From: Bombyx mori
Lineage: Eukaryota > Arthropoda > Insecta > Lepidoptera > Bombycidae
DNA: 64,000 nt
Direction of reading: 5' to 3'
NCBI RefSeq assembly: GCF_030269925.1
Contig: NC_085133.1
Span: forward strand, 206,001 to 270,000
Below, piece after piece: positions 89-59,715 of this stretch (positions are counted from its first letter, which is position 1; every line of letters starts with the position of its first letter). The notes below the pieces were generated by a model, which ran no database searches, was not told where the DNA came from, and worked only from the letters and a program-made list of their open reading frames with translations. A program made the position numbers and the translations under genes.

Positions 89-91
89 TTA

Positions 92-2968
92 ATGGCGTAT
101 ATAAGTAGAATAAAGCCCCTATCCGTAACGATAGGATTTTTTAACGCTTACGGTCTCGCAAATCAGCGTGATCAGGTTTCTGACTTTTTGCGTGACCATC
201 AAATTGATATCTTTTTAGTGCAGGAGACCCTACTTAAGCCCGCGCGCCGTGACCCTAAAATCGCGAACTATAACATGGTCAGGAACGACAGGCTCTCTGC
301 TCGTGGTGGTGGTACCGTCATTTACTATAGAAGAGCCCTGCATTGCGTCCCACTCGATCCTCCCGCGCTCGCTAATATCGAAGCATCAGTGTGCCGAATC
401 TCACTGACGGGACACGCGCCGATCGTTATCGCGTCCGTTTATCTTCCACCGGATAAGATCGTTCTAAGCAGTGATATCGAGGCGCTGCTCGGCATGGGGA
501 GCTCTGTCATTCTGGCGGGCGACCTAAATTGTAAACACATCAGGTGGAACTCACACACCACAACCCCGAATGGCAGGCGGCTTGACGCGTTAGTCGATAA
601 TCTCGCCTTCGATATCGTCGCTCCGCTAATCCCGACTCACTACCCGCTAAATATCGCGCATCGCCCGGATATACTCGACATAGCGTTATTAAAAAACGTA
701 ACTCTGCGCTTACACTCGATCGAAGTAGTTTCAGAGTTAGATTCAGACCACCGTCCCGTCGTTATGAAGCTCGGTCGCGCTCCCGATTCCGTTCCCGTCA
801 CGAGGACTGTGGTGGATTGGCACACGCTGGGCATCAGCCTGGCTGAATCTGATCCACCATCGCTACCGTTTAGCCCGGACTCTACCCCGTCTCCTCAGGA
901 TACCGCTGAAGCCATAGACATCTTAACGTCACACATCACCTCGACATTAGATAGGTCATCGAAACAAGTTGTAGCGGAGGACTTCCTTCACCGCTTCAAA
1001 TTGTCCGACGATATTAGGGAACTCCTTAGAGCTAAGAACGCCTCGATACGCGCCTACGACAGGTATCCTACCGCGGAAAATCGTATTCGAATGCGTGCCC
1101 TACAACGCGACGTAAAGTCTCGCATCGCCGAAGTCCGAGATGCCAGATGGTCTGATTTCTTAGAAGGACTCGCGCCCTCCCAAAGGTCTTACTACCGCTT
1201 AGCTCGTACTCTCAAATCGGATACGGTAGTAACTATGCCCCCCCTCGTAGGCCCCTCAGGCCGACTCACGGCGTTCGATGATGACGAAAAAGCAGAGCTG
1301 CTGGCCGATACATTGCAAACCCAGTGTACGCCCAGCACTCAATCCGTGGACCCTGTTCATGTAGAATTAGTAGACAGTGAGGTAGAACGCAGAGCCTCCT
1401 TGCCACCCTCTGATGCGTTACCACCCGTCACCCCGATGGAAGTTAAAGACTTGATCAAAGACCTACGTCCTCGCAAGGCTCCCGGTTCCGACGGTATATC
1501 CAATCGCGTTATTAAACTTCTACCCGTCCAACTCATCGTGATGTTGGCATCTATTTTCAATGCCGCTATGGCGAACTGTATCTTTCCCGCGGTGTGGAAA
1601 GAAGCGGACGTTATCGGCATACATAAACCCGGTAAACCAAAAAATCATCCGACGAGCTACCGCCCGATCAGCCTCCTCATGTCTCTAGGCAAACTGTATG
1701 AGCGTCTGCTCTACAAACGCCTCAGAGACTTCGTCTCATCCAAGGGCATTCTCATCGATGAACAATTCGGATTCCGTACAAATCACTCATGCGTTCAACA
1801 GGTGCACCGCCTCACGGAGCACATTCTTGTGGGGCTTAATCGACCAAAACCGTTATACACGGGAGCTCTCTTCTTCGACGTCGCAAAAGCGTTCGACAAA
1901 GTCTGGCACAACGGTTTGATTTTCAAACTATTCAACATGGGTGTGCCGGATAGTCTCGTGCTCATCATACGGGACTTCTTGTCGAACCGCTCTTTTCGAT
2001 ATCGAGTCGAGGGAACCCGCTCCTCCCCACGACCTCTCACAGCTGGAGTCCCGCAAGGCTCTGTCCTCTCACCCCTCCTATTTAGCTTATTCGTTAACGA
2101 TATTCCCCGGTCGCCGCCGACCCATTTAGCTTTATTCGCCGACGACACGACTGTTTACTATTCCAGTAGAAACAAGTCCCTAATCGCGAAGAAGCTTCAG
2201 AGCGCAGCCCTAGCCCTAGGACAGTGGTTCCGAAAATGGCGCATAGACATCAACCCAGCGAAAAGTACTGCGGTGCTATTTCAGAGGGGAAGCTCCACAC
2301 GGATTTCCTCCCGTATTAGGAGGAGGAATCTCACACCCCCGATTACTCTCTTTAGTCAATCCATACCCTGGGCCAGGAAGGTCAAGTACCTGGGCGTTAC
2401 CCTGGATGCATCGATGACATTCCGCCCGCATATAAAATCAGTCCGTGACCGTGCCGCGTTTATTCTCGGTAGACTCTACCCCATGATTTGTAAGCGGAGT
2501 AAAATGTCCCTTCGGAACAAGGTGACACTTTACAAAACTTGCATAAGGCCCGTCATGACTTACGCGAGTGTGGTGTTCGCTCACGCGGCCCGCACGCATA
2601 TAGACACCCTTCAATCTCTACAATCCCGCTTTTGCAGGTTAGCCGTCGGAGCTCCGTGGTTCGTGAGGAACGTTGACCTACACGACGACCTGGGCCTCGA
2701 ATCTATACAGAAATACATGAAGTCAGCGTCGGAACGGTACTTCGATAAGGCTATGCGTCATGATAATCGCCTTATCGTAGCCGCCGCTGACTACTCCCCG
2801 AATCCTGATCATGCAGGAGCCAGTCACCGTCGACGCCCTAGACACGTCCTTACGGATCCATCAGATCCAATAACCTTCGCACTAGACGCCTTCAGCTCTG
2901 GGAGCAGGCTTAGGGACCTCGGTAACCGTACTCGTCGAACTCGACAAAGAGTTCGCCGTGCAACCTAA
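92..2968 (+). CDS. LINE ORF2: AP endonuclease plus reverse transcriptase (Jockey-like)
   Basis: A 958-residue uninterrupted protein that would nick target DNA and reverse-transcribe the element RNA at the nick. The N-terminal apurinic-type endonuclease spans about residues 11-225: QET at 44-46 supplies the catalytic Glu, GDLNCKH at 143-149 the Asp/Asn pair, and SDHRPV at 218-223 the terminal catalytic Asp-His. The reverse transcriptase covers about residues 440-770, with the first catalytic Asp in FFDVAKAFD (594-602), then GVPQGSVLSPLLF, and the FADD box at 682-685. The C-terminus is basic and lacks an RNase H domain. The start at 92 sits three bases after the ORF1 stop. All catalytic residues appear intact, so the protein could be active; that is inference. 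Confidence 0.95.
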   Translation: MAYISRIKPLSVTIGFFNAYGLANQRDQVSDFLRDHQIDIFLVQETLLKPARRDPKIANYNMVRNDRLSARGGGTVIYYRRALHCVPLDPPALANIEASVCRISLTGHAPIVIASVYLPPDKIVLSSDIEALLGMGSSVILAGDLNCKHIRWNSHTTTPNGRRLDALVDNLAFDIVAPLIPTHYPLNIAHRPDILDIALLKNVTLRLHSIEVVSELDSDHRPVVMKLGRAPDSVPVTRTVVDWHTLGISLAESDPPSLPFSPDSTPSPQDTAEAIDILTSHITSTLDRSSKQVVAEDFLHRFKLSDDIRELLRAKNASIRAYDRYPTAENRIRMRALQRDVKSRIAEVRDARWSDFLEGLAPSQRSYYRLARTLKSDTVVTMPPLVGPSGRLTAFDDDEKAELLADTLQTQCTPSTQSVDPVHVELVDSEVERRASLPPSDALPPVTPMEVKDLIKDLRPRKAPGSDGISNRVIKLLPVQLIVMLASIFNAAMANCIFPAVWKEADVIGIHKPGKPKNHPTSYRPISLLMSLGKLYERLLYKRLRDFVSSKGILIDEQFGFRTNHSCVQQVHRLTEHILVGLNRPKPLYTGALFFDVAKAFDKVWHNGLIFKLFNMGVPDSLVLIIRDFLSNRSFRYRVEGTRSSPRPLTAGVPQGSVLSPLLFSLFVNDIPRSPPTHLALFADDTTVYYSSRNKSLIAKKLQSAALALGQWFRKWRIDINPAKSTAVLFQRGSSTRISSRIRRRNLTPPITLFSQSIPWARKVKYLGVTLDASMTFRPHIKSVRDRAAFILGRLYPMICKRSKMSLRNKVTLYKTCIRPVMTYASVVFAHAARTHIDTLQSLQSRFCRLAVGAPWFVRNVDLHDDLGLESIQKYMKSASERYFDKAMRHDNRLIVAAADYSPNPDHAGASHRRRPRHVLTDPSDPITFALDAFSSGSRLRDLGNRTRRTRQRVRRAT

Positions 2969-6928: not shown

Positions 6929-7378
6929 TTTTTTTTTTTTTTTTTTTTATTGCGTTGATGGTTGGACGAGCTCACAGCCCACCTGGTGTTAAGTGGTTAC
7001 TGGAGCCCATAGACATCTACAACGTAAATGCGCCACCCACCTCGAGATATAAGTTCTAAGGTCTCAGTATAGTTACAACGGCTACCCCCACCCTTCGAAC
7101 CGAAACGCATTACTGCTTCACGGCGGAAATAGGCGGAGTGGTGGTACCTACCCGTGCGGACTCCCAAGAGGTCCTACCACCAGTGATTACGCAAATTATA
7201 ATTTTTGCGGGTTTGATTTTTATTACACGATGTTATTCCTTCACCGTGGAAGTCAATCGTGAACATTTGTTGAGTACGTATTTCATTAGAAAAATTGGTA
7301 CCCGCCTGCGGGATTCGAACACCGGTGCATCGCAACATACGAATGCACCGGACGTCTTATCCTTTAGGCCACGACGAC
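6929..7378 (-). mobile_element. Bm1 SINE, full length, nested in another Bm1
   Basis: Reverse-oriented, with a poly(T) run at 6929-6950 and then the whole body and the tRNA-like head. The head contains the A-box-like TGGCCTAAAGGATAAGAC and B-box-like GGTGTTCGAATCCCGC (both read on the minus strand), the internal RNA polymerase III promoter of tRNA-derived SINEs. It ends at GTCGTCGTGG near 7378. A flanking target duplication is not clear. Confidence 0.93.
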
Positions 7379-11569: not shown

Positions 11570-11584
11570 AAGTTCTACGGTCTC

Positions 11585-11895
11585 AGTATAGTTACAACGG
11601 CTACCCCACCCTTCGAACCGAAACGCATTACTGCTTCACGGCGGAAATAAGCGGGGTGGTGGTACCTGCCCGTGCGGACTCCCAAGAGGTCCTACCACCA
11701 GTGATTACGCAAATTATAATTTTGCGGGTTTGATTTTTATTACACGATGTTATTCCTTCACCGTGGAAGTCAATCGTGAACATTTGTTGAGTACGTATTT
11801 CATTAAAAAAATTGGTACCCGCCTGCGGGATTCGAACACCGGTGCATCGCTACGTACGAATAAACCGGACGTCTTATCCTTTAGGCCACGATGAC
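11585..11895 (-). mobile_element. Bm1 SINE, head part of the split copy
   Basis: Continues the copy from 10553-10680: AGTATAGTTACAACGGCTAC through the body and tRNA-like head (GGGATTCGAACACC, CCTTTAGGCCACG) to about 11895. It was full length before the LINE insertion. Confidence 0.92.
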
Positions 11896-22672: not shown

Positions 22673-23879
22673 ATTATCATCCTAGAAATGTTTTTCTGCT
22701 TAAATTATTAGTTAACCCGAGTGAGTGATATACCGTTCGAACGCCGTCTCGAGGGAAATACTCAAAGTGTCCTGTTCAGAATTTTATATACGACTTTTTG
22801 CTAATATGTATTTATTAACACCCGTCGGTTTTGTCTGTTCTACACAGCAATGGGATCCTGACGTCTTACCGTGAGCGATCGGCTTGTGTCAGGCCCTCAT
22901 CGCGTCCTCCAAGCTCATTATTAACTCTTTGTGACATTGTTAGATACTGCGTCTGTCCCGGCCGGTATTTATCTAAGTGAGCACGTGCCTAACACGCGTT
23001 TACTAATGATATCAATGATGAAACTTTAATGTCTTCTGATTTAATGGAAAATACTGCGTAATAGCGCATCCGCAATATTCGTGTCAAGTTGTCGTGTCCG
23101 GCCCTGCGGCTCCAACCGGATGCTTCTACCTTTTCCTTTTAATATGCCCAAAACTTAGCCGATTTCTACTTTAAATCCTATACGAGTAATTGCGCTCGAA
23201 GAGTTTGGTCAGTCCTCCTGGCTCCATAAAGGCAGCCTGTTTCTTCTATTACTAATCAAGCTTATTGTGTACCGATCTCTGACACTTTTGACAGGCACCT
23301 GTCAAATATCTTGTGTTCGGTGATGACTACTGCCACAAGTTTGTTACCGTTTATTCTCAGTGGTAAAACTGTATTCAGAATCGGTGGTCCTTACTATTAG
23401 TTGATTATCTTACCCGATTAGCTCTGTTTCCAAACACGAGGACACATCCAATGCATAAAAGTAAGACACGATCACACAAAAGACACCGTACCAAACATTT
23501 AAAAAAAAAGAGAAAACAATAAATTACAAAAAAATCGTTCTTAACGACCAACTCGTCATTAACCGGTAAGGTTGAAAAACAATAAACAATATTGTTTTCC
23601 GAGTCAAACGTCGAGTTAAAACAATTTCAAATAACAAAAACGCCGAATGCTGGCGCCACGCCAAGCACGCGGTCGCCATCCAGCGCGCGCACGGTGTGGC
23701 GTCTCGCACTAGGCGTCGCGGCGGGCACAGATACAAACATCACTAGTGTTCGTACCCCCATACTGCGGACTACGCTTAGGTACTCGCTTGAACTATACCG
23801 TGGAGCGGTCCAGGGGCAGCTTGTGTCTAAGCAAACTGAAACTTTACTTCTTTTGGGAATGGTTTTTTACTATGAGGAC
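22673..23879. other. No recognised gene; GC-rich patch
   Basis: 23640-23720 is GC-rich with several GCGC words, in otherwise AT-rich sequence. Overlapping short frames on both strands give no recognisable protein. Confidence 0.3.
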
Positions 23880-24160
23880 AAAATCAAACCCGAAAAATTT
23901 TAATTTGCGTAATTACTGGTGGTAGGACCTCTTGTGAGTCTGCGCGGGTAGGTACCACCACCCAACCTATTCCTGCAGTGAAGCAGTAATGCGTTTCGGT
24001 TTGTAGGGTGGAGGCAGCCGTTGTAACTATACTGAGACCATAGAACTTATATCTCAAGGTCGGGTGGCGCGGTTACGTTGTAGATGTCTATGGGCTCCAG
24101 TAACCACTTAACACCAGGTGGGCTGTGAGGTCGTCCAGCCATCTAAGCAATAAAAAAAAA
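23880..24160 (+). mobile_element. Bm1 SINE, left partner of the tandem duplication
   Basis: 5'-truncated Bm1 beginning near AAATCAAACCCG. Diagnostic variants are GAGACCATAGAAC (A at 24040), AAGGTCGGGTGGCGCGG and GAGGTCGTCCAGCC. The 3' half of the junction Bm1 at 28146-28576 carries these same variants. Confidence 0.93.
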
Positions 24161-24639
24161 TTGATTTTGGGATGGGATTGGGGTTATTATAATCGCGCTC
24201 GGGTTGGTTCCATCGTCTTGGCAATTACTGCCGCGCAACAATATTATTGAGACTACAATGACAATCACAATTATATTCACGTTGTAACTATCTATGAGCT
24301 CAAGTACTCGTTGAGTACCAAGTGGAATTTAGAGCATTTATTTACATTTAGAACTTTGAATTCCTATCTTTAAGCGGGCACATTCACATAATTATTTCAG
24401 CAGGCCGCGCTGACAGATAATGACAAAAGTAAATGTTAGTGTTTAAATTACAGTCTCAAGTCGAGTTAAATACCCTTTCATAACACATCTCCTCGGACAT
24501 TTCAAGAATGCTAAATATTCTCACAGCACTCCAGGATGGTATTTGGTGCTAAACATTGCGAAATGTATGGAACACACAGTTGTGTAGGATCAGCCTGCGT
24601 GACGCCTCTCGCGCGTCGCTCGTACTGTGACTATTCTAC

Positions 24640-24860
24640 CTATGCTGATAGCTTTGAGAGGCTATTTCAGCTTCTTGACGTGTAGGTGAACTCACGGGGC
24701 TTAAACCGGAGTGTTGCTAATACTGGGCAAGAGCAATGCTTCGCAGAATCTACCACCGGATCGGAAACGCGACCCACTGAGAAGATCCGGCTAGAAACTC
24801 AGTGGGCTGTGTCTGTGGGTTAATTTACTCGTCGAGCCCTTCGTCGCAAGCCACGGCTTC
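24640..24860 (-). repeat. LINE C-terminus/3'UTR fragment (unit 1)
   Basis: On the minus strand a short frame ends TLAEAVACDEGLDE at a stop near 24823. It is followed by GAGTTTCTAGCCGGATCTTC, TCAGTGGGTCGCG and CCGGTGGTAGATTCTGCG, the 3'UTR block related to that of the LINE at 1-3216. The copy in unit 2 is at 29056-29276. Confidence 0.6.
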
Positions 24861-25579
24861 GGCGAGGGTGGTGACCGCTAGTACTGTGACATACACCTTT
24901 GAAGTGATAACAATAATATTTGAACTGAATCGGAGAAATGAAGGTGCAGACGTTGCGCACAGAACACGATCCAATAGAAAAACAACAGTATTCATTATTA
25001 TATTTCACAGACAGGGCTATATAGGTTTATCAGAATCACTATTGATAGTAAAATACCATATTAATAAAATACAGCAGATTTCGAGACGGATCTAACAGAG
25101 TAGTGCGAAACAGAAATAGACAAGTTGGTGGAAAAACCAAACGGCTTACCGCACAGCTTATAACTAATAGTACATTTCAGTTTAATTTAAAAAACTGTAA
25201 CCAAATTCGTGTCTGCTCTCGGGGCGGTCGGTAATTAATTAGACGCGCGCGACGGGTACGGACGAAACAATTTAATCTTCGCCTTCAACAGAAATGCTTT
25301 ACGAGATGTATCATTAGGCGTATTTGGTTTTATGAAGCTTACAAATTTTCCAAGCTACGTCAGTAATGTTACATGCTACCCACAATACACTAACGTTAAT
25401 CTGAAGGCGCGCACCGGGAGCCCGGATTATGCGATGGAGTCCCGTTTCTAAAATAATAATACATATTTTTAAGAATTACAGCTGCCACATATCGTGACTT
25501 GAAGAATTAAAACAATAATAGCTCTTGAAATTGAGATTTACAATTAACTAACGCTAACTTTATAGTTATCTTAACTAGA

Positions 25580-25819
25580 TTTTTTTTAATGCTTAGATGG
25601 ATGGACGAGCTCACAGCTCACCTGATGTGAAGTGGTTACTGGAGCCCATAGACATCTATGGCGTAAATGCGCCACCCGCCTTGAGATATAAGTTTTAAGG
25701 TCTCAGTATAGTTACAACAGCTGCCCCACCCTTCAAACCGAAACGCATTACTGCTTCACGGCAGAAATAGGCAGGGCGGTAGTACCCGTGCGGACTTACA
25801 AGAGGTCCTATCACCAGTG
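25580..25819 (-). mobile_element. Bm1 SINE, 5'-truncated (unit 1)
   Basis: TTTTTTTTAATGCTTAGATG through to CCTATCACCAGTG, reverse-oriented, without the head. Confidence 0.92.
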
Positions 25820-26592
25820 AAAATATTTGGAGAGGATAAAACCTGGTGACGGAGACTTAAAATTGATTCAAAAAACTTAAACCCAATGTTGGACTCTTCA
25901 GCTCTACTCTTTCGCAAACAGTCTTGCTTTCCTGAGTGTGGCGTAAATTCAGCCAACCACATTCACGCGTACACTTGAAGTCTCATTTAGAAGATACGGA
26001 GGAGAAGAGTGAGAATTTGGTCTAGTAAATAATAAACCACTACTGAAGAATTTGTAAGAGTGTTCGTAGATGGATGAACAACTATCATCATGAAAGATCT
26101 TCTGAGCTGAGAACCTGCGACCCAAGCCACATGCCTTCGTTAAATACCTTCAGTGTTAGTAAAATTCGTTAAAACTCATAAAACGGATCCAAACGAAATG
26201 GGTCGCCGTTCTCGGGAACTGTTCAAAAAGTGTAAAAATAGTTTCGCTCTCAGACCTCCAGTAAACGGCGGCGGCGCGCGCGGGGCGCCCAATTAACAGA
26301 GCCCCGGTAACTGGGTCGAGCGGTTATTGCAGGGGATGGCTTATTGCAAACATAACTTAGTTTTAGTGGTCTCGGTGGTAAGCCGACCAAACGTAAGATC
26401 CCTGCCTTGCACCCGAAACTTCAACGAAACCCGAACCTTTCATATTACGCGGTCCAGGGAAAATGGTCGGTTTCGTCTTTTTATAAATATTCGAAATTAT
26501 TTTAGTGAATAGCGCTATTGATAATGACGTAAGTGAAATCTTTTACTAAAAATTTAAACCACATAAAGTTTGTGTAATCACACGTCCATATT

Positions 26593-26725
26593 GTCAGGTC
26601 TCCTTCGGAGGCGTTCGGGCTGTTAGCAAATCCCACCCCTCCTGACTGAGCCTTTGCTCGCCCACCTGTCCTGGTGAAACTGGAAAGTCCTCAGGGCCAT
26701 CAATAAACTCTCAATCATAAAAAAA
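26593..26725 (+). mobile_element. LINE 3'UTR, severely 5'-truncated (unit 1)
   Basis: GTCAGGTCTCCTTCGGAGGC to ATCATAAAAAAA. It matches the last 130 bp of the LINE ending at 3216, apart from a small deletion in the GGTAGCTG segment. Confidence 0.85.
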
Positions 26726-27378
26726 CGTCCATATTGGAACGCGATATAGCTATGTAAAGAAAATCCTTTATACCTTCATTATTTAAAATTCTTTAGTTTT
26801 TAGGATTTTAGGAGTTTTCTTCAGTGTCATGAAGTGAAGTCTGTCATTAAGTAAAAAGAGAGTTCAGTTTTGTATATTTTATAATACTATTTGCTATTTA
26901 ATTATTAATATTATTTTTTTAAAATATTAAGAGCTTTATATATTGTTTTCTTTTTATACATATAACAGAAAACGAAATTAAGTATTTTATTGTTTAGTCA
27001 TTCTGAAGTACTCCATATCGTTATATAGGCATGTAGATAACATATAACACGAATGATACTCTCTCAGAGATCTAATAGTATGGACTGATGAGATACACTA
27101 CGCTCTCTTCGAATATTGCAGTACATTATATTTCCTATTAATTAAAAAAGCCATAGAGACGGAGATGAACACTAAAACAATTTAATGTTGATTTTTCTAA
27201 TTGCAATTTAAAAAAAAAGATCTTTCTTTCAAAAAGATCACACAATTTTTCAGCACAGACAATAATAATTATTTATTTATTTATGTACACACAGAAAAGA
27301 AGACATAGTACAATACTGATGTTTTAAAAATAAAATCAGTAAAACTACATAAACATACAGTTAACTTATTAAGATAAA

Positions 27379-27643
27379 CTAGCTGACCCGCAGACTTTAG
27401 TACCTCAATCGATAAATAAAAGACCTAAACTTTTGTATAAAATAAACTTAAATCATACACATCAATAAAAAAACAAAATTGTTATTTTTATTTTATTCCT
27501 AGTATTTTCATATTTATCTACTTTTTAAACCTTCCCTGGACTTCCACAAATAATTCAAGAGCAAAATTAGCCAAATCGATCCAGTTCTCGAGTTTTAGCG
27601 AGACTAACGAACAGCAATTCATTTTTATATACTCGTATATAGA
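27379..27643 (-). mobile_element. Non-autonomous Helitron (unit 1)
   Basis: CTAG at 27379-27382 (minus-strand 3' end, ..GGGTCAGCTAG then T). The 5' end, TCTATATACGAGTATATAAA, lies at 27643, with the expected A next to it. 265 bp, no coding capacity. Confidence 0.75.
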
Positions 27644-28145
27644 TTATTAAGAGTACATTAACTCTTAACTGTGAAAATTAAGCGTCCCATGAGATGAACT
27701 GCATGTATGTGTGAACGACGCAGCGCCCCGGGTCTCGGCCCGGTTACATTCATTACGGCGCTTCCGTTTACCGGGATGAAGACGGAGAATTAATTTTCAA
27801 CTTCGGATTCTGGGAGAGACGGGCGCACATAGTATTTGTGGAGTATTTCGTGAGCTAGTCTTTAGCATAGAGCACAAGTGCAGTAGTAAAAGATCTACTA
27901 CCGAGAGTTTAATACTGACAACATCACTCGGGTCTGATGAAACTAGGTAGATAAATCCCGTCATTGTATTATGTTTTTAAGTTATCATTTAGTAAACAGA
28001 AAGTTAAAGTTATTTTTGCTTAAATATTTTTTATATTTCTATCACCCAAAATAGTATCGACACATATCTGCCGGCGCAGTGGTAATTTTTCAACGGCGTT
28101 CTTGAAAAAGTCAGGTGAGTCAATAAACTATTCAAAGGCATTGAA

Positions 28146-28576
28146 GTTGTCGTGGCCTAAAGGATAAAACGTCCGGTGCATTCGTGTTGAGCGATGCATC
28201 GGTGTTCGGATCCCGGGCGGGTACCAATTTTTCTAATGAAATACGTACTCAACAAATGTTCACGATTGACTTCCACGGTGAAAGAATAATATAGTGTAAT
28301 AAAAACCGGCAAAATTATAGTTTGCGTAATTGCTGGTGGTAGGACCTCTTGTGAGTCCGCGCGGGTAGGTGCCACCACCCAACCTATTACTACCGTGAAG
28401 CAGTAATGCGTTTCAGTTGGAAGGGCGGGGCAGCCGTTGTAATTATACTGAGACCATAGAACTTATATCTCAAGGTCGGGTGGCGCGGTTACGTTGTAGA
28501 TGTCTATGGGCTCCAGTAACCACTTAACACCAGGTGGGCTGTGAGGTCGTCCAGCCATCTAAGCAATAAAAAAAAA
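28146..28576 (+). mobile_element. Chimeric Bm1 SINE at the duplication junction
   Basis: The head and first two thirds carry the variants of the right-hand Bm1 (CGTGTTGAGCG, CAGTTGGAAGGGCGGGG, AATTATACTGAGACC). The last third carries those of the left-hand Bm1 (ATAGAAC, GGTCGGGTGGCGCGG, GAGGTCGTCCAGCC). The switch lies in the 12-bp shared tract at 28444-28455. Confidence 0.9.
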
Positions 28577-29055
28577 TTGATTTTGGGATGGGATTGGGGT
28601 TATTATAATCGCGCTCGGGTTGGTTCCATCGTCTTGGCAATTACTGCCGCGCAACAATATTATTGAGACTACAATGACAATCACAATTATATTCACGTTG
28701 TAACTATCTATGAGCTCAAGTACTCGTTGAGTACCAAGTGGAATTTAGAGCATTTATTTACATTTAGAACTTTGAATTCCTATCTTTAAGCGGGCACATT
28801 CACATAATTATTTCAGCAGGCCGCGCTGACAGATAATGACAAAAGTAAATGTTAGTGTTTAAATTACAGTCTCAAGTCGAGTTAAATACCCTTTCATAAC
28901 ACATCTCCTCGGACATTTCAAGAATGCTAAATATTCTCACAGCACTCCAGGATGGTATTTGGTGCTAAACATTGCGAAATGTATGGAACACACAGTTGTG
29001 TAGGATCAGCCTGCGTGACGCCTCTCGCGCGTCGCTCGTACTGTGACTATTCTAC

Positions 29056-29276
29056 CTATGCTGATAGCTTTGAGAGGCTATTTCAGCTTCTTGACGTGTA
29101 GGTGAACTCACGGGGCTTAAACCGGAGTGTTGCTAATACTGGGCAAGAGCAATGCTTCGCAGAATCTACCACCGGATCGGAAACGCGACCCACTGAGAAG
29201 ATCCGGCTAGAAACTCAGTGGGCTGTGTCTGTGGGTTAATTTACTCGTCGAGCCCTTCGTCGCAAGCCACGGCTTC
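29056..29276 (-). repeat. LINE C-terminus/3'UTR fragment (unit 2)
   Basis: Copy of 24640-24860 in the second duplication unit, apparently identical. Confidence 0.6.
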
Positions 29277-29995
29277 GGCGAGGGTGGTGACCGCTAGTAC
29301 TGTGACATACACCTTTGAAGTGATAACAATAATATTTGAACTGAATCGGAGAAATGAAGGTGCAGACGTTGCGCACAGAACACGATCCAATAGAAAAACA
29401 ACAGTATTCATTATTATATTTCACAGACAGGGCTATATAGGTTTATCAGAATCACTATTGATAGTAAAATACCATATTAATAAAATACAGCAGATTTCGA
29501 GACGGATCTAACAGAGTAGTGCGAAACAGAAATAGACAAGTTGGTGGAAAAACCAAACGGCTTACCGCACAGCTTATAACTAATAGTACATTTCAGTTTA
29601 ATTTAAAAAACTGTAACCAAATTCGTGTCTGCTCTCGGGGCGGTCGGTAATTAATTAGACGCGCGCGACGGGTACGGACGAAACAATTTAATCTTCGCCT
29701 TCAACAGAAATGCTTTACGAGATGTATCATTAGGCGTATTTGGTTTTATGAAGCTTACAAATTTTCCAAGCTACGTCAGTAATGTTACATGCTACCCACA
29801 ATACACTAACGTTAATCTGAAGGCGCGCACCGGGAGCCCGGATTATGCGATGGAGTCCCGTTTCTAAAATAATAATACATATTTTTAAGAATTACAGCTG
29901 CCACATATCGTGACTTGAAGAATTAAAACAATAATAGCTCTTGAAATTGAGATTTACAATTAACTAACGCTAACTTTATAGTTATCTTAACTAGA

Positions 29996-30235
29996 TTTTT
30001 TTTAATGCTTAGATGGATGGACGAGCTCACAGCTCACCTGATGTGAAGTGGTTACTGGAGCCCATAGACATCTATGGCGTAAATGCGCCACCCGCCTTGA
30101 GATATAAGTTTTAAGGTCTCAGTATAGTTACAACAGCTGCCCCACCCTTCAAACCGAAACGCATTACTGCTTCACGGCAGAAATAGGCAGGGCGGTAGTA
30201 CCCGTGCGGACTTACAAGAGGTCCTATCACCAGTA
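29996..30235 (-). mobile_element. Bm1 SINE, 5'-truncated (unit 2)
   Basis: Copy of 25580-25819. The only difference between units seen by eye falls at its right edge (GTAAAAAAATA instead of GTGAAAATA). Confidence 0.92.
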
Positions 30236-31010
30236 AAAAAATATTTGGAGAGGATAAAACCTGGTGACGGAGACTTAAAATTGATTCAAAAAACTTAAAC
30301 CCAATGTTGGACTCTTCAGCTCTACTCTTTCGCAAACAGTCTTGCTTTCCTGAGTGTGGCGTAAATTCAGCCAACCACATTCACGCGTACACTTGAAGTC
30401 TCATTTAGAAGATACGGAGGAGAAGAGTGAGAATTTGGTCTAGTAAATAATAAACCACTACTGAAGAATTTGTAAGAGTGTTCGTAGATGGATGAACAAC
30501 TATCATCATGAAAGATCTTCTGAGCTGAGAACCTGCGACCCAAGCCACATGCCTTCGTTAAATACCTTCAGTGTTAGTAAAATTCGTTAAAACTCATAAA
30601 ACGGATCCAAACGAAATGGGTCGCCGTTCTCGGGAACTGTTCAAAAAGTGTAAAAATAGTTTCGCTCTCAGACCTCCAGTAAACGGCGGCGGCGCGCGCG
30701 GGGCGCCCAATTAACAGAGCCCCGGTAACTGGGTCGAGCGGTTATTGCAGGGGATGGCTTATTGCAAACATAACTTAGTTTTAGTGGTCTCGGTGGTAAG
30801 CCGACCAAACGTAAGATCCCTGCCTTGCACCCGAAACTTCAACGAAACCCGAACCTTTCATATTACGCGGTCCAGGGAAAATGGTCGGTTTCGTCTTTTT
30901 ATAAATATTCGAAATTATTTTAGTGAATAGCGCTATTGATAATGACGTAAGTGAAATCTTTTACTAAAAATTTAAACCACATAAAGTTTGTGTAATCACA
31001 CGTCCATATT

Positions 31011-31143
31011 GTCAGGTCTCCTTCGGAGGCGTTCGGGCTGTTAGCAAATCCCACCCCTCCTGACTGAGCCTTTGCTCGCCCACCTGTCCTGGTGAAACTG
31101 GAAAGTCCTCAGGGCCATCAATAAACTCTCAATCATAAAAAAA
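31011..31143 (+). mobile_element. LINE 3'UTR, 5'-truncated (unit 2)
   Basis: Copy of 26593-26725 in the second unit. Confidence 0.85.
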
Positions 31144-31796
31144 CGTCCATATTGGAACGCGATATAGCTATGTAAAGAAAATCCTTTATACCTTCATTAT
31201 TTAAAATTCTTTAGTTTTTAGGATTTTAGGAGTTTTCTTCAGTGTCATGAAGTGAAGTCTGTCATTAAGTAAAAAGAGAGTTCAGTTTTGTATATTTTAT
31301 AATACTATTTGCTATTTAATTATTAATATTATTTTTTTAAAATATTAAGAGCTTTATATATTGTTTTCTTTTTATACATATAACAGAAAACGAAATTAAG
31401 TATTTTATTGTTTAGTCATTCTGAAGTACTCCATATCGTTATATAGGCATGTAGATAACATATAACACGAATGATACTCTCTCAGAGATCTAATAGTATG
31501 GACTGATGAGATACACTACGCTCTCTTCGAATATTGCAGTACATTATATTTCCTATTAATTAAAAAAGCCATAGAGACGGAGATGAACACTAAAACAATT
31601 TAATGTTGATTTTTCTAATTGCAATTTAAAAAAAAAGATCTTTCTTTCAAAAAGATCACACAATTTTTCAGCACAGACAATAATAATTATTTATTTATTT
31701 ATGTACACACAGAAAAGAAGACATAGTACAATACTGATGTTTTAAAAATAAAATCAGTAAAACTACATAAACATACAGTTAACTTATTAAGATAAA

Positions 31797-32061
31797 CTAG
31801 CTGACCCGCAGACTTTAGTACCTCAATCGATAAATAAAAGACCTAAACTTTTGTATAAAATAAACTTAAATCATACACATCAATAAAAAAACAAAATTGT
31901 TATTTTTATTTTATTCCTAGTATTTTCATATTTATCTACTTTTTAAACCTTCCCTGGACTTCCACAAATAATTCAAGAGCAAAATTAGCCAAATCGATCC
32001 AGTTCTCGAGTTTTAGCGAGACTAACGAACAGCAATTCATTTTTATATACTCGTATATAGA
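31797..32061 (-). mobile_element. Non-autonomous Helitron (unit 2)
   Basis: Copy of 27379-27643, with CTAG at 31797-31800 and the TCTATATACG 5' end at 32061. Confidence 0.75.
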
Positions 32062-32563
32062 TTATTAAGAGTACATTAACTCTTAACTGTGAAAATTAAG
32101 CGTCCCATGAGATGAACTGCATGTATGTGTGAACGACGCAGCGCCCCGGGTCTCGGCCCGGTTACATTCATTACGGCGCTTCCGTTTACCGGGATGAAGA
32201 CGGAGAATTAATTTTCAACTTCGGATTCTGGGAGAGACGGGCGCACATAGTATTTGTGGAGTATTTCGTGAGCTAGTCTTTAGCATAGAGCACAAGTGCA
32301 GTAGTAAAAGATCTACTACCGAGAGTTTAATACTGACAACATCACTCGGGTCTGATGAAACTAGGTAGATAAATCCCGTCATTGTATTATGTTTTTAAGT
32401 TATCATTTAGTAAACAGAAAGTTAAAGTTATTTTTGCTTAAATATTTTTTATATTTCTATCACCCAAAATAGTATCGACACATATCTGCCGGCGCAGTGG
32501 TAATTTTTCAACGGCGTTCTTGAAAAAGTCAGGTGAGTCAATAAACTATTCAAAGGCATTGAA

Positions 32564-32990
32564 GTTGTCGTGGCCTAAAGGATAAAACGTCCGGTGCATT
32601 CGTGTTGAGCGATGCATCGGTGTTCGGATCCCGGGCGGGTACCAATTTTTCTAATGAAATACGTACTCAACAAATGTTCACGATTGACTTCCACGGTGAA
32701 AGAATAATATAGTGTAATAAAAACCGGCAAAATTATAGTTTGCGTAATTGCTGGTGGTAGGACCTCTTGTGAGTCCGCGCGGGTAGGTGCCACCACCCAA
32801 CCTATTACTACCGTGAAGCAGTAATGCGTTTCAGTTGGAAGGGCGGGGCAGCCGTTGTAATTATACTGAGACCTTAGAACTGATAATATATTTCAAAGCG
32901 GGTGGCACTCGTAGATGTCTATGGGCTCCAATAACCACTTAACACCAGGTGGGTTGTGAGCTAGTCCACCCATCAAAGCAATAAAAAAAA
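32564..32990 (+). mobile_element. Bm1 SINE, full length, right partner of the duplication
   Basis: tRNA-like head (GTTGTCGTGGCCTAAAGGAT; B box GGTGTTCGGATCCCGGG, one base off consensus) and the complete body. The 3' part has its own variants: ACTGATAATATATTTCAAAG, a short deletion (GGCACTCGTAG), and GGGTTGTGAGCTAGTCC. These are absent from the junction copy. Confidence 0.93.
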
Positions 32991-33443
32991 CGTAATTGTC
33001 TACATCTATCCCGTATCTACCTATCGCCTGTGTTGATTCCTATAATTACATAAACATTTCACATAATCCAATTCACTAATGTGTGAAACGTCTGCCGGGC
33101 TGTTTACATTTTTTTTTCATAAATGATTCACCTCAGTAAACTGTTTACCGTTCCGAATATAGTGGCCATGCAATGCTTGGGACAAATTATATATTTATAA
33201 GATACCGGTGTGTCCCGTGACGTACAGCCGGTTGTACTCACGCAGTGCTCTGACAGAGCTCCATGTACTTGGAACAACGTGTACAAATTGCTAACCCAAT
33301 AGAATAAAAATACAATTAAAAAACAACCTATTGCAAAAGAATAAAGCTTACTGGTCGTTCAGAAGCAATCACCTTCCTAATACAAACAATAACCGATTTG
33401 TTTGATGACGACTTTTTTAGACAGCCGATTAAGTTCACGTAAA
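32991..33443. other. No recognised gene
   Basis: AT-rich sequence with no coding or repeat signal recognised. Confidence 0.3.
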
Positions 33444-33775
33444 TCTATACATATAAATAAAATTGGAGTGTTTGTTTGTAATATTGAAATAACCGCTTTT
33501 TACTACATGCATATGAATGTATATACGGTACATACACCAAAATATTTTTTTTTACAATTTTTGTCTGTCGGTCTCTCTGTCTGCTTGTTCCGGCTATTCT
33601 CTGGAACGGCTGGACCGATTTTGACGAGACTTTCACTGATAGGCTACTTTTTTTAAGACTAGCTTCGCCCCTCGGCGTCACCGCGGTACGACAATAACCG
33701 CAGGTAACATCACGGGACTCAGCTATCAATAATAAAATTTAATGTTTCCGAAGCGAAGCGAGGGTGGGTCGCTAG
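33444..33775 (+). mobile_element. Non-autonomous Helitron
   Basis: 5' TCTATACATATAAATAAAAT at 33444, preceded by A. The 3' end ..GGGTGGGTCG-CTAG is at 33772-33775, followed by T. The inner phrase GGAACGGCTGGACCGATTTT is common to lepidopteran Helitrons. A second, reverse-facing terminus-like word (ACTAGCTTCGCCCCTCGG at 33658) suggests a mosaic or an inner deletion. Confidence 0.8.
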
Positions 33776-34261
33776 TGTTCAATAAATTTCTAATTACATA
33801 ATTTGTTTTATCATACATAACTTGGTATTTATGTGTTGTTGTTTTATAGATTACTTTTATATATTTTCATGTTATATACATTAAAATAGCTAGTGAAATA
33901 AGAGATTAATCTGTTTTCATATTATCCCCAGTTGAAAGAGTAGTGTGTGGTCACAGCAACGGCGACAGTACTGGCCGAGCTCCAGCACGGTCAGCTAATA
34001 ACTGAAATTCACGGCGGGAGGCGGATTTAGAACGACTTCTGCGTTCAGAGACTAATTGACAGAATCATTATTGGTCTTTCGAGACAGCTCACCGCGACCA
34101 CGGCGACGCACGGACTCAGGAGCGCCCGGAGTCTAATCGATGACGGGCTCAATGCTTTCTAACATATACACGAATTTTTTAACTCACAGATAAATTCCAC
34201 AACGACAAATAAATCCAACAATTATAAGACTTTGGTCAAAACATATCATTAACACATTTAA
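33776..34261. other. No recognised gene
   Basis: AT-rich, then a GC-richer stretch at 33950-34145. No supported feature. Confidence 0.3.
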
Positions 34262-42234: not shown

Positions 42235-42713
42235 ATAAAACAAAAACATGCACTAGTATTTAACGTAATATAATTACAAGAGCGAACTCTTACAATTCCT
42301 AACTCAATCAATAACCGTGTAACAAATGTGTGCGCGAATATAACGCACCGCTCGCCTCACAAAGAAATCAATTCAAATAACATAATTTAATAAAAAATAC
42401 ACCGCTCAGTCACGCGCGTTCCTGTTATTAATGTTCGTAATGCAACCTCGACTGTCGAGTACCTGAAGCGTAATACGAAGCCCCCGGCCGCCGCCGACAA
42501 CACTGTTGCTCCCCAAAACGCTTTATGATTACAGACTGCACTCATCCGGTCCACTAATGGGAAAGAAATTAAAACGCACGCGTCCACGTCCATATTTAAC
42601 GAACATAATCATTAATGGGGGGAAAGCGACGCCATGACAGTTATTTTCCCGCGTACATTTTTAATGGCGGCGACAGGTGGCAAATTTGCGACCAAAGTAA
42701 AATAATCACTTAC
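42235..42713 (-). other. Start of the Shal intron
   Basis: Begins with the consensus donor GTAAGTGATT (minus strand, 42713 downward). A GC-rich patch (42475-42525) and a 68-residue open frame lie within it but show no recognisable protein. No exon encoding YGDMVPET-type pore sequence was found between here and base 1. Confidence 0.6.
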
Positions 42714-43828
42714 CCGAGCGTGGTCATCGTGACGATGGTGTACCAGAAGGCGGCCGGAATCGACGTGAAGTTTGTGTCCTGCTCGTTCTTCTCCGCGTAG
42801 AACATCACTGTCGCGAATATAATGATGGCCATCGCGAGCGAGAACACCAGGAAGCCGAGCTCGCTGGCGCACGACTTGAGCGTGTAGCCCAGGATCCTTA
42901 GTCCTTGGGAGTGCCGCGAGAACTTGAAGATCCGAAACACTCGGAACACTCTGAGGGTGACAAACGCACCCGAGACGTCGTCGTTGTCAGTGATACCCAG
43001 GCCGATGTAGTACGGCAGGATCGCGACCACGTCGATGATGGACATCACCGAGCGAACGAACTTGCAGCGGTCCGGGGCCGCGAACAGTCGCAGCAGGTAC
43101 TCCGCCGTGAAGATCATCACGCACGCCGTGTCCAGGCAGAAGAACACTATCTTGTAGCGTTCGCCGCACGGCAGGGTCCCGGCCCGGCCAGGTCGGTGTC
43201 CGCACGGTACCGTCTCCACTACGTTAGCCATCACGGAGACGGCAATGAAAAATCCAGTCACATAGTAAAACACGAGGGCAGCCGTTGACGTGTGGGGGTT
43301 CTCGAAGGCCCTCCACATTTTTTGTCGTAAGTCCGTGAGCTGAGGCAGACTCTGGTCGCCTGCTTCACTAAGCTTGTCATCCATAAGACGTTCGGCATTT
43401 TCTCTCTTCCTGTCTCTGTAGTCTTCGTAACAACAGTCACCGATGACATCGGGAAGGATGCCGAAGAACGCGAGTTCCTCATCGTAGCCCGTGAGGCACT
43501 CGTGTTTGGGGTAGTGGAGTTTACCAGTGCGGTAATAATTCAGAATATGCCTGAATATGTCCGGGTCTCTGTCAAAAAAGTACTCTCGGCTGTCTTCGTC
43601 GTAAAAGAATTCGCGTTCTGAGGAACCAAGCAGCGAGTCCGGGTACTTCTCGAGAGTGTTCCGCCAAGTCTCAAAGCGTCGTCCGGAGACGTTGATGAGG
43701 AGCTTCTCGTCCTCGGCACGGCGGCGGTCCTTGGGCACGGGCGGCGGCGGAAGTGGATGGGTCGCGATGGGGACCCACCCGATGGCTGCTGCTCTGGCGA
43801 AGGGCAGCCAGGCGGCGACGGACGCCAT
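42714..43828 (-). CDS. Shal: Shal (Kv4) A-type potassium channel, first coding exon
   Basis: Pore-forming subunit of a voltage-gated, rapidly inactivating K+ channel of the plasma membrane, used in neuronal dendrites and muscle. The ATG at 43828 opens [20 protein letters not shown], the diagnostic Kv4 N-terminus that also binds KChIP-type partners. The T1 tetramerisation domain spans about residues 41-145 with the non-Shaker zinc motif HX5CX20CC (H105, C111, C132, C133). Membrane segments: S1 near 183-203, S2 226-247, S3 258-278, S4 288-311 ([19 protein letters not shown]), S5 322-345, pore helix 357-370. The exon ends after the first two bases of Gly372 in the TTLG part of the selectivity filter, at the donor GTAAGTG. 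The YGD half, S6 and C-terminus must be in later exons, not seen to the left. Very sure. Confidence 0.97.
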
Positions 43829-44837
43829 AGCGTCTCCTCACGGCACCGTCGCCGCGACAACTGGTCCCCCCGCGCCGGTTATTTCGGTCTCCCGCCCAGA
43901 TGGTGAGAGTGTTGCCACACGATCACTATAATTAGCATTTAAAGACATTGTTTTCGTTTATGATTTCATGTCGACCGAGATTTATAGCTCGCGGAGCATT
44001 TCGTGTTTAGTCTGCAGCCGGTTTCATGACGAGTCCGTTTTGTTTGTGTTATGACTTCGCTTAGATTAGCGGTCAGAAACTATTTTAATATTAATGCGCA
44101 ATAAAACGCTAACAACTGTGCACTTTTATTTCATGACTCGGAACAACAGTTTATTGCAATAATTCATTTACAAGAATCATAAATGTTTGTTTTATGTTGT
44201 GCGAGTGAATAATGTATGAGATCAATCATTTTAATATGTTTGTTTGATGTCGAAACACTAATTTTAAATTAACAGAATTTTGTATTGCCATTCGAATAGT
44301 TGAAACAGCAGACGCTATTTTTATTTGATATAATATCTTATTATTTAATTATAGTATTAATTAAGTTTCCCTTATTTTGCAGATTACATTGAATGTGCCA
44401 GCAACACTGTCCCGGGAACAAGCGGAGTGCGCCTGCGTGACTCGTGACGTCACTGCCTAATAAATTGATTTTCATACTTCTATCTCACTTCAGCACTACC
44501 TTAGTTCCGTAACACTGTCTCTCTTCCACGGCTTTAAGCTCTTGTGACCTTTTGTACATTTTTCACTGCTTCCAAAGAGTTTCTCAAAGGCCTTTGTCTT
44601 GGGGTAGTGAAAAGGCCTGAATTTAGCTTGAAGCCGGATCTAAAGCTGAACATTCAGCATCCAGCATTTAGCACTATTAACGAAATAAAAATTCCAAAAA
44701 TACCGGTCAACAAAATGTTCGTAAATATGAAAGTTACTGATAATTTTCATTACAGACGGTGCACGAATGTAATTGAACTTTATTGTTCCTTCAACTGAAC
44801 TTTTAAATAAACTTGCATTACGTATTTGGAAGTTATT
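43829..44837 (-). promoter_or_regulatory. Shal upstream region with a CRE octamer
   Basis: Sequence 5' of the Shal start codon on the minus strand. The first 130 bp is GC-rich, as expected for 5'UTR, and then AT-rich. A perfect TGACGTCA lies at 44445-44452, about 617 bp before the ATG, near another GC-rich patch (44400-44460). An activity-regulated CREB input would fit an ion-channel gene, but that is inference. No TATA box can be assigned. Confidence 0.35.
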
Positions 44838-58191: not shown

Positions 58192-59715
58192 TCACCTGGG
58201 GTCAGCGCAACATGTTTTCTCCTTCCATACTCTTCTATCATATACCATTTCTTCGCTCACTCCCCTCCTACCCATATCGTCTTTCACACAATCCATCCAT
58301 TTCTTCTTAGGTCTACCTCTTCCTCTAAATCCTTCCACATTCATAGTTAACACTCTCTTAACAACCTCATTTTCATTCCGTCTCATCACATGTCCATACC
58401 ATCCCAAACGTGCACTCCTCAGCTTCTCTGTCACAGGTGCCACTTTCAGACTTCCTCTAACATATTCATTCCGTATTCTATCCATTCTCGTTACTCCACA
58501 CATCCATCGCAACATTCGCATCTCTACTGCATGCAATCGCCTTTCATCCGCCACTTTCGTTGTCCAACACGCTGATCCATACAAGACGGCAGGCCTTATT
58601 AAGGTCTTATATATCTTCCCTTTTAGGGGAAGAGGGATGTGCGAGTCACATATGGTGCCCGTGACCTGCCGCCATTTCATCCATCCTGCGTCAATTCTGT
58701 GCCTGACAGTACGATCCAGTTCACCGTCGCTTTGGATAACAGACCCTAGGTAGCGGAAGTCTTGACATACTGGCAAAGGTGTTCCGTCGAGGGAAATGGG
58801 TGCAAAATTGGAGAGACCGCCAAAATCACAGAACAGATGTTCGGTTTTCGATCTGCTGATTTTTAGGCCAACACTCTCCAACTTGCATCGCCATTTCTCC
58901 AGTATGTTTTGGACCTCGAGCCCGTTTTCTCCGACGAGCACTATGTCATCGGCAAACAGCATACACCAAGGGGGCTCTTCCTGTATCTCCGATGTCAAGG
59001 CATCCATCACAAGCAGGAAGAGATAGGGACTTAGTGCAGACCCTTGGTGTAAGCCCACTGCCACATTGAACTCGTCGGAATTCCCCGCGGCGGTTCGTAC
59101 ATACGTCCTGGCTCGACTGTACATGGCACAGATTAACCTCACATACTTACCAGGTATACCTTTCTCATTCAATGCCCACCACAAAACTGCTCTAGGTACT
59201 CGGTCGTACGCTTTCTCTAGATCAACGAACACCATATGCAGATTCCTGTGCACGTCGCGATGTTTTTCGCACACTTGGCGGAGTGCAAATATGGCGTCCG
59301 TTGTCCCGCGACCAGGCATGAACCCGAACTGGTTTTGGGTGATCTCACTTTCATCTCGCAACCGCTTTTCTATCACTTTCTCCCAAGCTTTCATACTATG
59401 AGACATAAGCTTTATTCCCCGATAGCTGCCACAGTCTTGCACATCCCCTTTATTTTTGTATATGGGCACCAGCGTACTGATGCTCCATTCCGTAGGGATC
59501 ACTTCTTCTTGCAGCAGCTTATTGAAGAATAAAGTCAGCCACTTATATCCGTCTTCTCCCAGTATCTTCCATACTTCCACTGGTATACCGTCTGGTCCTT
59601 CCGATTTTCCGCTTTTCATACTTCTCACTGCTTCTCTAACTTCATACATACTAATCTCATTCACAAGTCCGACGTTCTCTGGCTTCCTATTAATCACTCT
59701 AGTCGTTCTCCTCAT
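58192..59715 (-). pseudogene. RTE reverse transcriptase and C-terminus (frameshifted copy)
   Basis: A 507-codon frame with the RT fingers and palm: YKNKGDVQDCGSYRGIKLMS, QNQFGFMPGRGT, first catalytic Asp in VDLEKAYDRV (164-173), HQGSALSPYLF (223-233) and the FADD box at 254-257. The C-terminus has AVEMRMLRWMCGVTRMDRIR, GWYGHVMRRNE, GRGRPKKKWMDCVKDDM and ends KEKTCCADPR. All RT catalytic residues are present, but the frame is offset from the upstream part by one base near 59699-59715, so the full protein is broken. Colinear with the remnant at 37018-37480. Confidence 0.9.

Follow-up and report, generated by a model that had tools for sequence, protein, structure and literature searches.

A near-identical 4.4-kb tandem duplication with a hybrid Bm1 element at its center in a Shal/Kv4 intron of the silkworm

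The closest described systems are the homology-driven events between human Alu or LINE-1 elements, termed TEMR-HR (PMC9675761). According to that study, human HR-type deletions and duplications arise between elements in direct orientation, the median repeat similarity of homology-driven events is 82.6%, and the tract of exchange is shorter than 40 bp in most of them, with a median of 16 bp for Alu events; microhomology of at least 5 bp is present in 93.3% of TEMR-HR events. Such short tracts were argued to favor RAD51-independent routes that anneal homologous sequences, and single-strand annealing, microhomology-mediated break-induced replication and end joining are the routes named (PMC9675761). 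For the silkworm, a pan-genome study gives an average of 120,216 structural variants (SVs) per genome, with transposable elements (TEs) as the largest component: TEs account for 67% of the SV sequence, and SV density tracks TE density (PMC9509368). In one silkworm assembly, 335,620 SINEs are annotated (PMC10085791).

We analyzed a window of 64,000 nucleotides from Bombyx mori (C27:206001-270000), which contains a 4.4-kb direct duplication (Table 1; positions are those of the window unless the contig is named). The elements at its breakpoints are high-copy short interspersed elements with an A-rich 3′ tail in the left, hybrid and right copies, traits of the Bm1 family, to which we take them to belong. 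In the surrounding 260 kb, we found 77 Bm1 matches, 44 of them at least 200 bp long, and genome-wide there were 41 matches from the 40 of 7001 candidates scored. The locus resembles the human TEMR-HR events in several respects: both breakpoints lie in directly oriented elements of the same family, the product is a chimera in homologous register without inserted bases at the junction, the tract is short (12 bp of microhomology), the parental elements are roughly 80-90% similar (86% identical at this locus), and the event is of kilobase scale (PMC9675761). It differs in the element involved, which is Alu in human and Bm1 in the moth, and its 4.4 kb exceed the human medians given in the same source (Alu events, 1,163 bp; duplications, 1,085 bp; PMC9675761).

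Table 1. Features of the duplicated locus and its host gene (window positions)
Feature	Position	Strand	Remarks
Left parental Bm1-type SINE	23886-24159	+	5′-truncated compared with the hybrid and right copies; tail A-rich
Left (first) copy of the unit	24040-28455	+	4416 bp
Other interspersed repeat within the unit	24634-24877		copies on many chromosomes
Extra Bm1 fragment within the unit	25580-25817	-	opposite orientation; duplicated at 29996-30233
Sole unit difference, left side	25818-25819	+	global alignment
Other interspersed repeat within the unit	27353-27655		copies on many chromosomes
Hybrid junction Bm1	28143-28576	+	from the right element, head, body and upstream flank; from the left element, tail and downstream flank
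Exchange tract of the hybrid, TATACTGAGACC (12 bp)	28444-28455	+	also at 24028-24039 and 32862-32873
Right (second) copy of the unit	28456-32873	+	4418 bp; 99.93% identical to the left copy
Sole unit difference, right side	30235-30237	+	two extra A, plus A for G
Right parental Bm1	about 32561-32990	+	longer copy with head region
First coding exon, Shal/Kv4 voltage-gated potassium channel	42714-43837	-	frame 42713-43837; GTAAGT donor from 42713

BLAST joins the two units in a single full-length direct alignment. Its 4418 columns contain one mismatch and one gap, both of which a global alignment places at one position, within an A-run adjoining the internal Bm1 fragment. A preliminary description of this DNA had stated that 24040-28455 is repeated as 28456-32873 with almost no change, which is borne out by this comparison. 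It had also noted only one small difference, near 25818 versus 30234; the difference is indeed single, with its position in the right copy corrected as listed in Table 1. Any position within the 12-bp tract can serve as the boundary of the units.

Searches of the silkworm's own genome (assembly of 461.7 Mb in 30 contigs) with segments 24200-25200 and 26300-28100 returned two full-length matches of 100% identity for each query, all at this locus, and only short repeat pieces elsewhere among the 40 of 5189 and 40 of 6308 candidates scored; the number of two copies applies to these candidates and these two segments. Four direct repeats in the surrounding 260 kb reach a length of 250 bp and an identity of 95%, and only the duplicated unit is longer than 1 kb. 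With the same thresholds there are six inverted repeats, the one above 1 kb being a LINE. Screening 23000-34000 for short-period tandem repeats with periods up to 500 revealed none. Some 32% of the unit has counterparts elsewhere in the 260 kb, chiefly in SINE-like blocks. Two frames that span 90 codons or more from stop to stop start inside the first unit: 28160-28462 (-) lies almost wholly within the hybrid Bm1, and 24781-25092, considered for a coding role of the unit, was rejected as it has no Pfam match.

The origin of the junction element can be read from the identity on either side of the tract. Starting from 24028 and 28444, the sequences are identical for 1791 bp rightwards, tract included, and for 0 bp leftwards. 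For 28444 and 32862, the 2624 bp preceding the tract are identical; rightwards, identity stops with the 12 bp of the tract itself. Positions 24028 and 32862 have 12 bp in common and no more. These runs demonstrate that the junction Bm1 switches once, inside 28444-28455, confirming the earlier proposal of a hybrid with the head and body of the right and the tail of the left element. The limits of the parental elements required small adjustments: homology of the left SINE to the right one covers 23886-24159 (previously 23880-24160), and the right element starts at about 32561 (previously 32564). The left and right Bm1 are 86.0% identical over 279 columns with gaps counted, or 90.6% without gap columns. 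They share nine identical runs of at least 12 bp, up to a maximum of 25 bp, with the exchange tract at the short end of this range. Based on a comparison of shared flank words with 300 shuffles, a clear target-site duplication is missing beside both parental Bm1s: the longest common words were 8 bp (reached in 12 of 300 shuffles, and located off the element edge) and 7 bp (48 of 300). Target-site duplications, which would be expected to mismatch around the hybrid, were therefore dropped as a criterion for its origin. By eye, the two flanks of the left Bm1 (23876-23890 and 24160-24170) show an inverted rather than direct match of 9 bp, CAAAATCAA with TTGATTTTG as reverse complement.

We compared the 400-bp flanks of all 52 Bm1 matches of at least 150 bp in the 260 kb on the same strand, filtering simple repeats and listing matches of at least 95% identity and at least 80 bp. 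The 5′ flank of the hybrid is that of the right element and its 3′ flank that of the left element, in each case at 400 of 400 positions. At these cut-offs, the hybrid is the sole one of the 52 matches with flanks borrowed from two others, and no second hybrid Bm1 was found among them. The pair 25580/29996 has both flanks in common (396 and 400 bp) because it is located inside the duplicated unit, and the one further 5′-flank match (80 bp, 96.25%) connects two other Bm1s out of register. Two minus-strand Bm1s 4.5 kb apart, 7051-7378 and 11570-11895, are 96.3% identical and thereby closer than the other listed pairs of the window outside the duplication; this pair was discarded as a similar event, as its flanks show no in-register match.

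As a second control, we drew 1,934,348 random pairs of positions, separated by 1-10 kb, from the 260 kb, with the second unit excluded. Sites were scored as homologous if they fell within 12 bp of each other, with positions interpolated on same-strand Bm1 copies. Only 255 of the pairs (1.3e-4) hit roughly homologous sites of two same-strand Bm1s, so that the breakpoints at homologous Bm1 sites are not a chance product. The frequency estimate for such duplications rests on the 260 kb around the locus.

Taken together, SINE-mediated duplication is well supported, and we consider it very probable that the locus is a real tandem duplication between two Bm1s that arose by template switching or crossover. 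Starting from the observed product and its single switch point, we infer an ancestral intron that would have carried the left Bm1, the spacer and the right Bm1, with the two elements oriented alike. A strand of the right Bm1 could then, in the course of replication or repair, have paired with the homologous place of the left Bm1 on the sister or homologous chromatid. Copying or joining resumed from there would duplicate the spacer and leave a Bm1 with the head of the right and the tail of the left element between the two copies. The chance that this occurred by annealing-based template switching, as in break-induced or microhomology-mediated replication, is in our estimate about even, which makes it somewhat likelier than a classical crossover; we favor it because the tract measures only 12 bp in repeats that are 86% identical. 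The product alone is compatible with template switching and reciprocal crossover alike.

The strongest competitor, itself a sub-case of real duplication, is classical unequal (non-allelic homologous) crossing-over at the two Bm1s, in which misaligned homologues or sister chromatids would yield the duplication and, as other product, the reciprocal deletion. We regard this as possible but tentative. It accounts for the direct orientation, the homologous register and the single, patch-free switch, and would lead to the same product. Female silkworms lack meiotic crossing-over, which would restrict a meiotic event of this kind to males. Moreover, the longest identical run of 25 bp and the tract of 12 bp fall short of the perfect identity of more than 100 bp quoted for mammalian NAHR (PMC9675761), a value that may not be the silkworm's or that of moths in general. 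The preliminary description had named unequal crossing-over between SINEs as the cause, stating that it gives exactly one direct duplication with a central hybrid. Its SINE-mediated direct duplication and the hybrid at the center stand; given the 12-bp tract and the 25-bp run, crossing-over as such is not established, and "exactly" is too strong for a product that template switching explains at least equally well.

An assembly artefact, that is, a false tandem copy created by haplotype stitching or a chimeric read, is unlikely. The copies are nearly identical, which fits this explanation, and the lone copy-specific change lies in an A-run, where sequencing errors are common. However, stitching should join identical sequence, and an in-register switch within 12 bp between repeats of only 86% identity would be unexpected for it. 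In addition, the joined 260 kb contain no N, and the candidates scored for the two unit segments include no third full-length match that could represent a stray haplotype contig. Gene conversion between adjacent copies is generally common and would erase differences between them, but an old duplication homogenized in this way is very improbable, as the whole 4.4 kb is uniform save for one place and partial conversion would usually leave diverged patches.

For a real tandem duplication, the near-identity also bounds the age. Outside the A-run event, we counted 0 differences in about 4405 sites between the units. With a silkworm mutation rate of 0.41e-8 per site per generation (PMC10048334), this corresponds to at most about 83,000 generations at 95%, a bound scaled from 117,254 computed at 2.9e-9. 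The event had been called very recent, and recent in the sense of this bound it is, unless gene conversion kept the copies alike; conversion or an assembly error would yield the same pattern of near-identity.

The duplication (C27:230040-238873) sits in the first coding intron of a Shal/Kv4 gene, a context absent from the earlier account. In the frame 42713-43837 (-), Pfam recognizes the Shal-type N-terminal, BTB and ion-transport domains, and the best of its matches to Kv4.2 (KCND2) chains has an E of 2.3e-202. Aligned to chain 7e83_C, the frame runs to residue 371, and the next exon on the same strand, C27:193404-193565 (exon start at C27:193566), begins at residue 372, indicating that no conserved exon lies in between. 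From the GTAAGT donor to the TTACAG acceptor, with ends counted by hand, the intron spans C27:193567-248713, or 55,147 bp. Many SINE copies are found in this 55-kb intron. The effect of the duplication is probably a longer intron and nothing more. The unit may contain a nested gene, an alternative exon or an enhancer, the scan for exons having covered one frame against Pfam. That it represents a real, still polymorphic allele from around or after domestication, which alters Shal/Kv4 expression or splicing through the doubled intronic sequence, seems to us highly improbable; if true, the locus could be used as a natural assay of how SINEs mediate rearrangement in a moth whose females are achiasmate.

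Elsewhere in the window, a 959-residue open frame at 89-2965 (+) encodes endonuclease and reverse transcriptase domains of a non-LTR LINE. The region around it, C27:204345-209214, has an inverted copy at C27:113301-118170 with 99.5% identity over 4870 bp, which suggests that this LINE moved recently. Antisense within its frame lies the only Rfam match in the window to reach its gathering score, mir-2822 (2484-2550, minus strand; 87.1 bits against a gathering score of 84), outside the duplicated unit; judged from this position, the mir-2822 family may be a retrotransposon fragment. Another LINE is represented by a reverse transcriptase frame at 58195-59715 (-), and a 403-bp stretch from 58162 overlapping this frame has a direct copy 38 kb away with 96% identity.

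In the literature we found, judged by titles and the openings of abstracts, the duplication appears to be undescribed, and the main text of the silkworm pan-genome paper does not contain the name "Bm1" (PMC9509368). The variants described there resemble our locus in being rich in TEs, but about 99% of them are insertions and deletions (PMC9509368), and a tandem duplication may have been catalogued as an insertion. Because the SV load of the silkworm is high and TEs are its largest component (PMC9509368), an intronic SINE-mediated duplication is expected rather than surprising. The type of mutation is thus ordinary, and the value of the locus is that of a textbook-clean, young insect example of SINE-mediated tandem duplication, with the tract resolved to the base. 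It suggests that Bm1 copies of 86% identity and a tract of 12 bp can suffice for a duplication. Given the number of SINEs annotated, such events could add to the high structural-variant load of the silkworm, for which one locus is an illustration and no proof.
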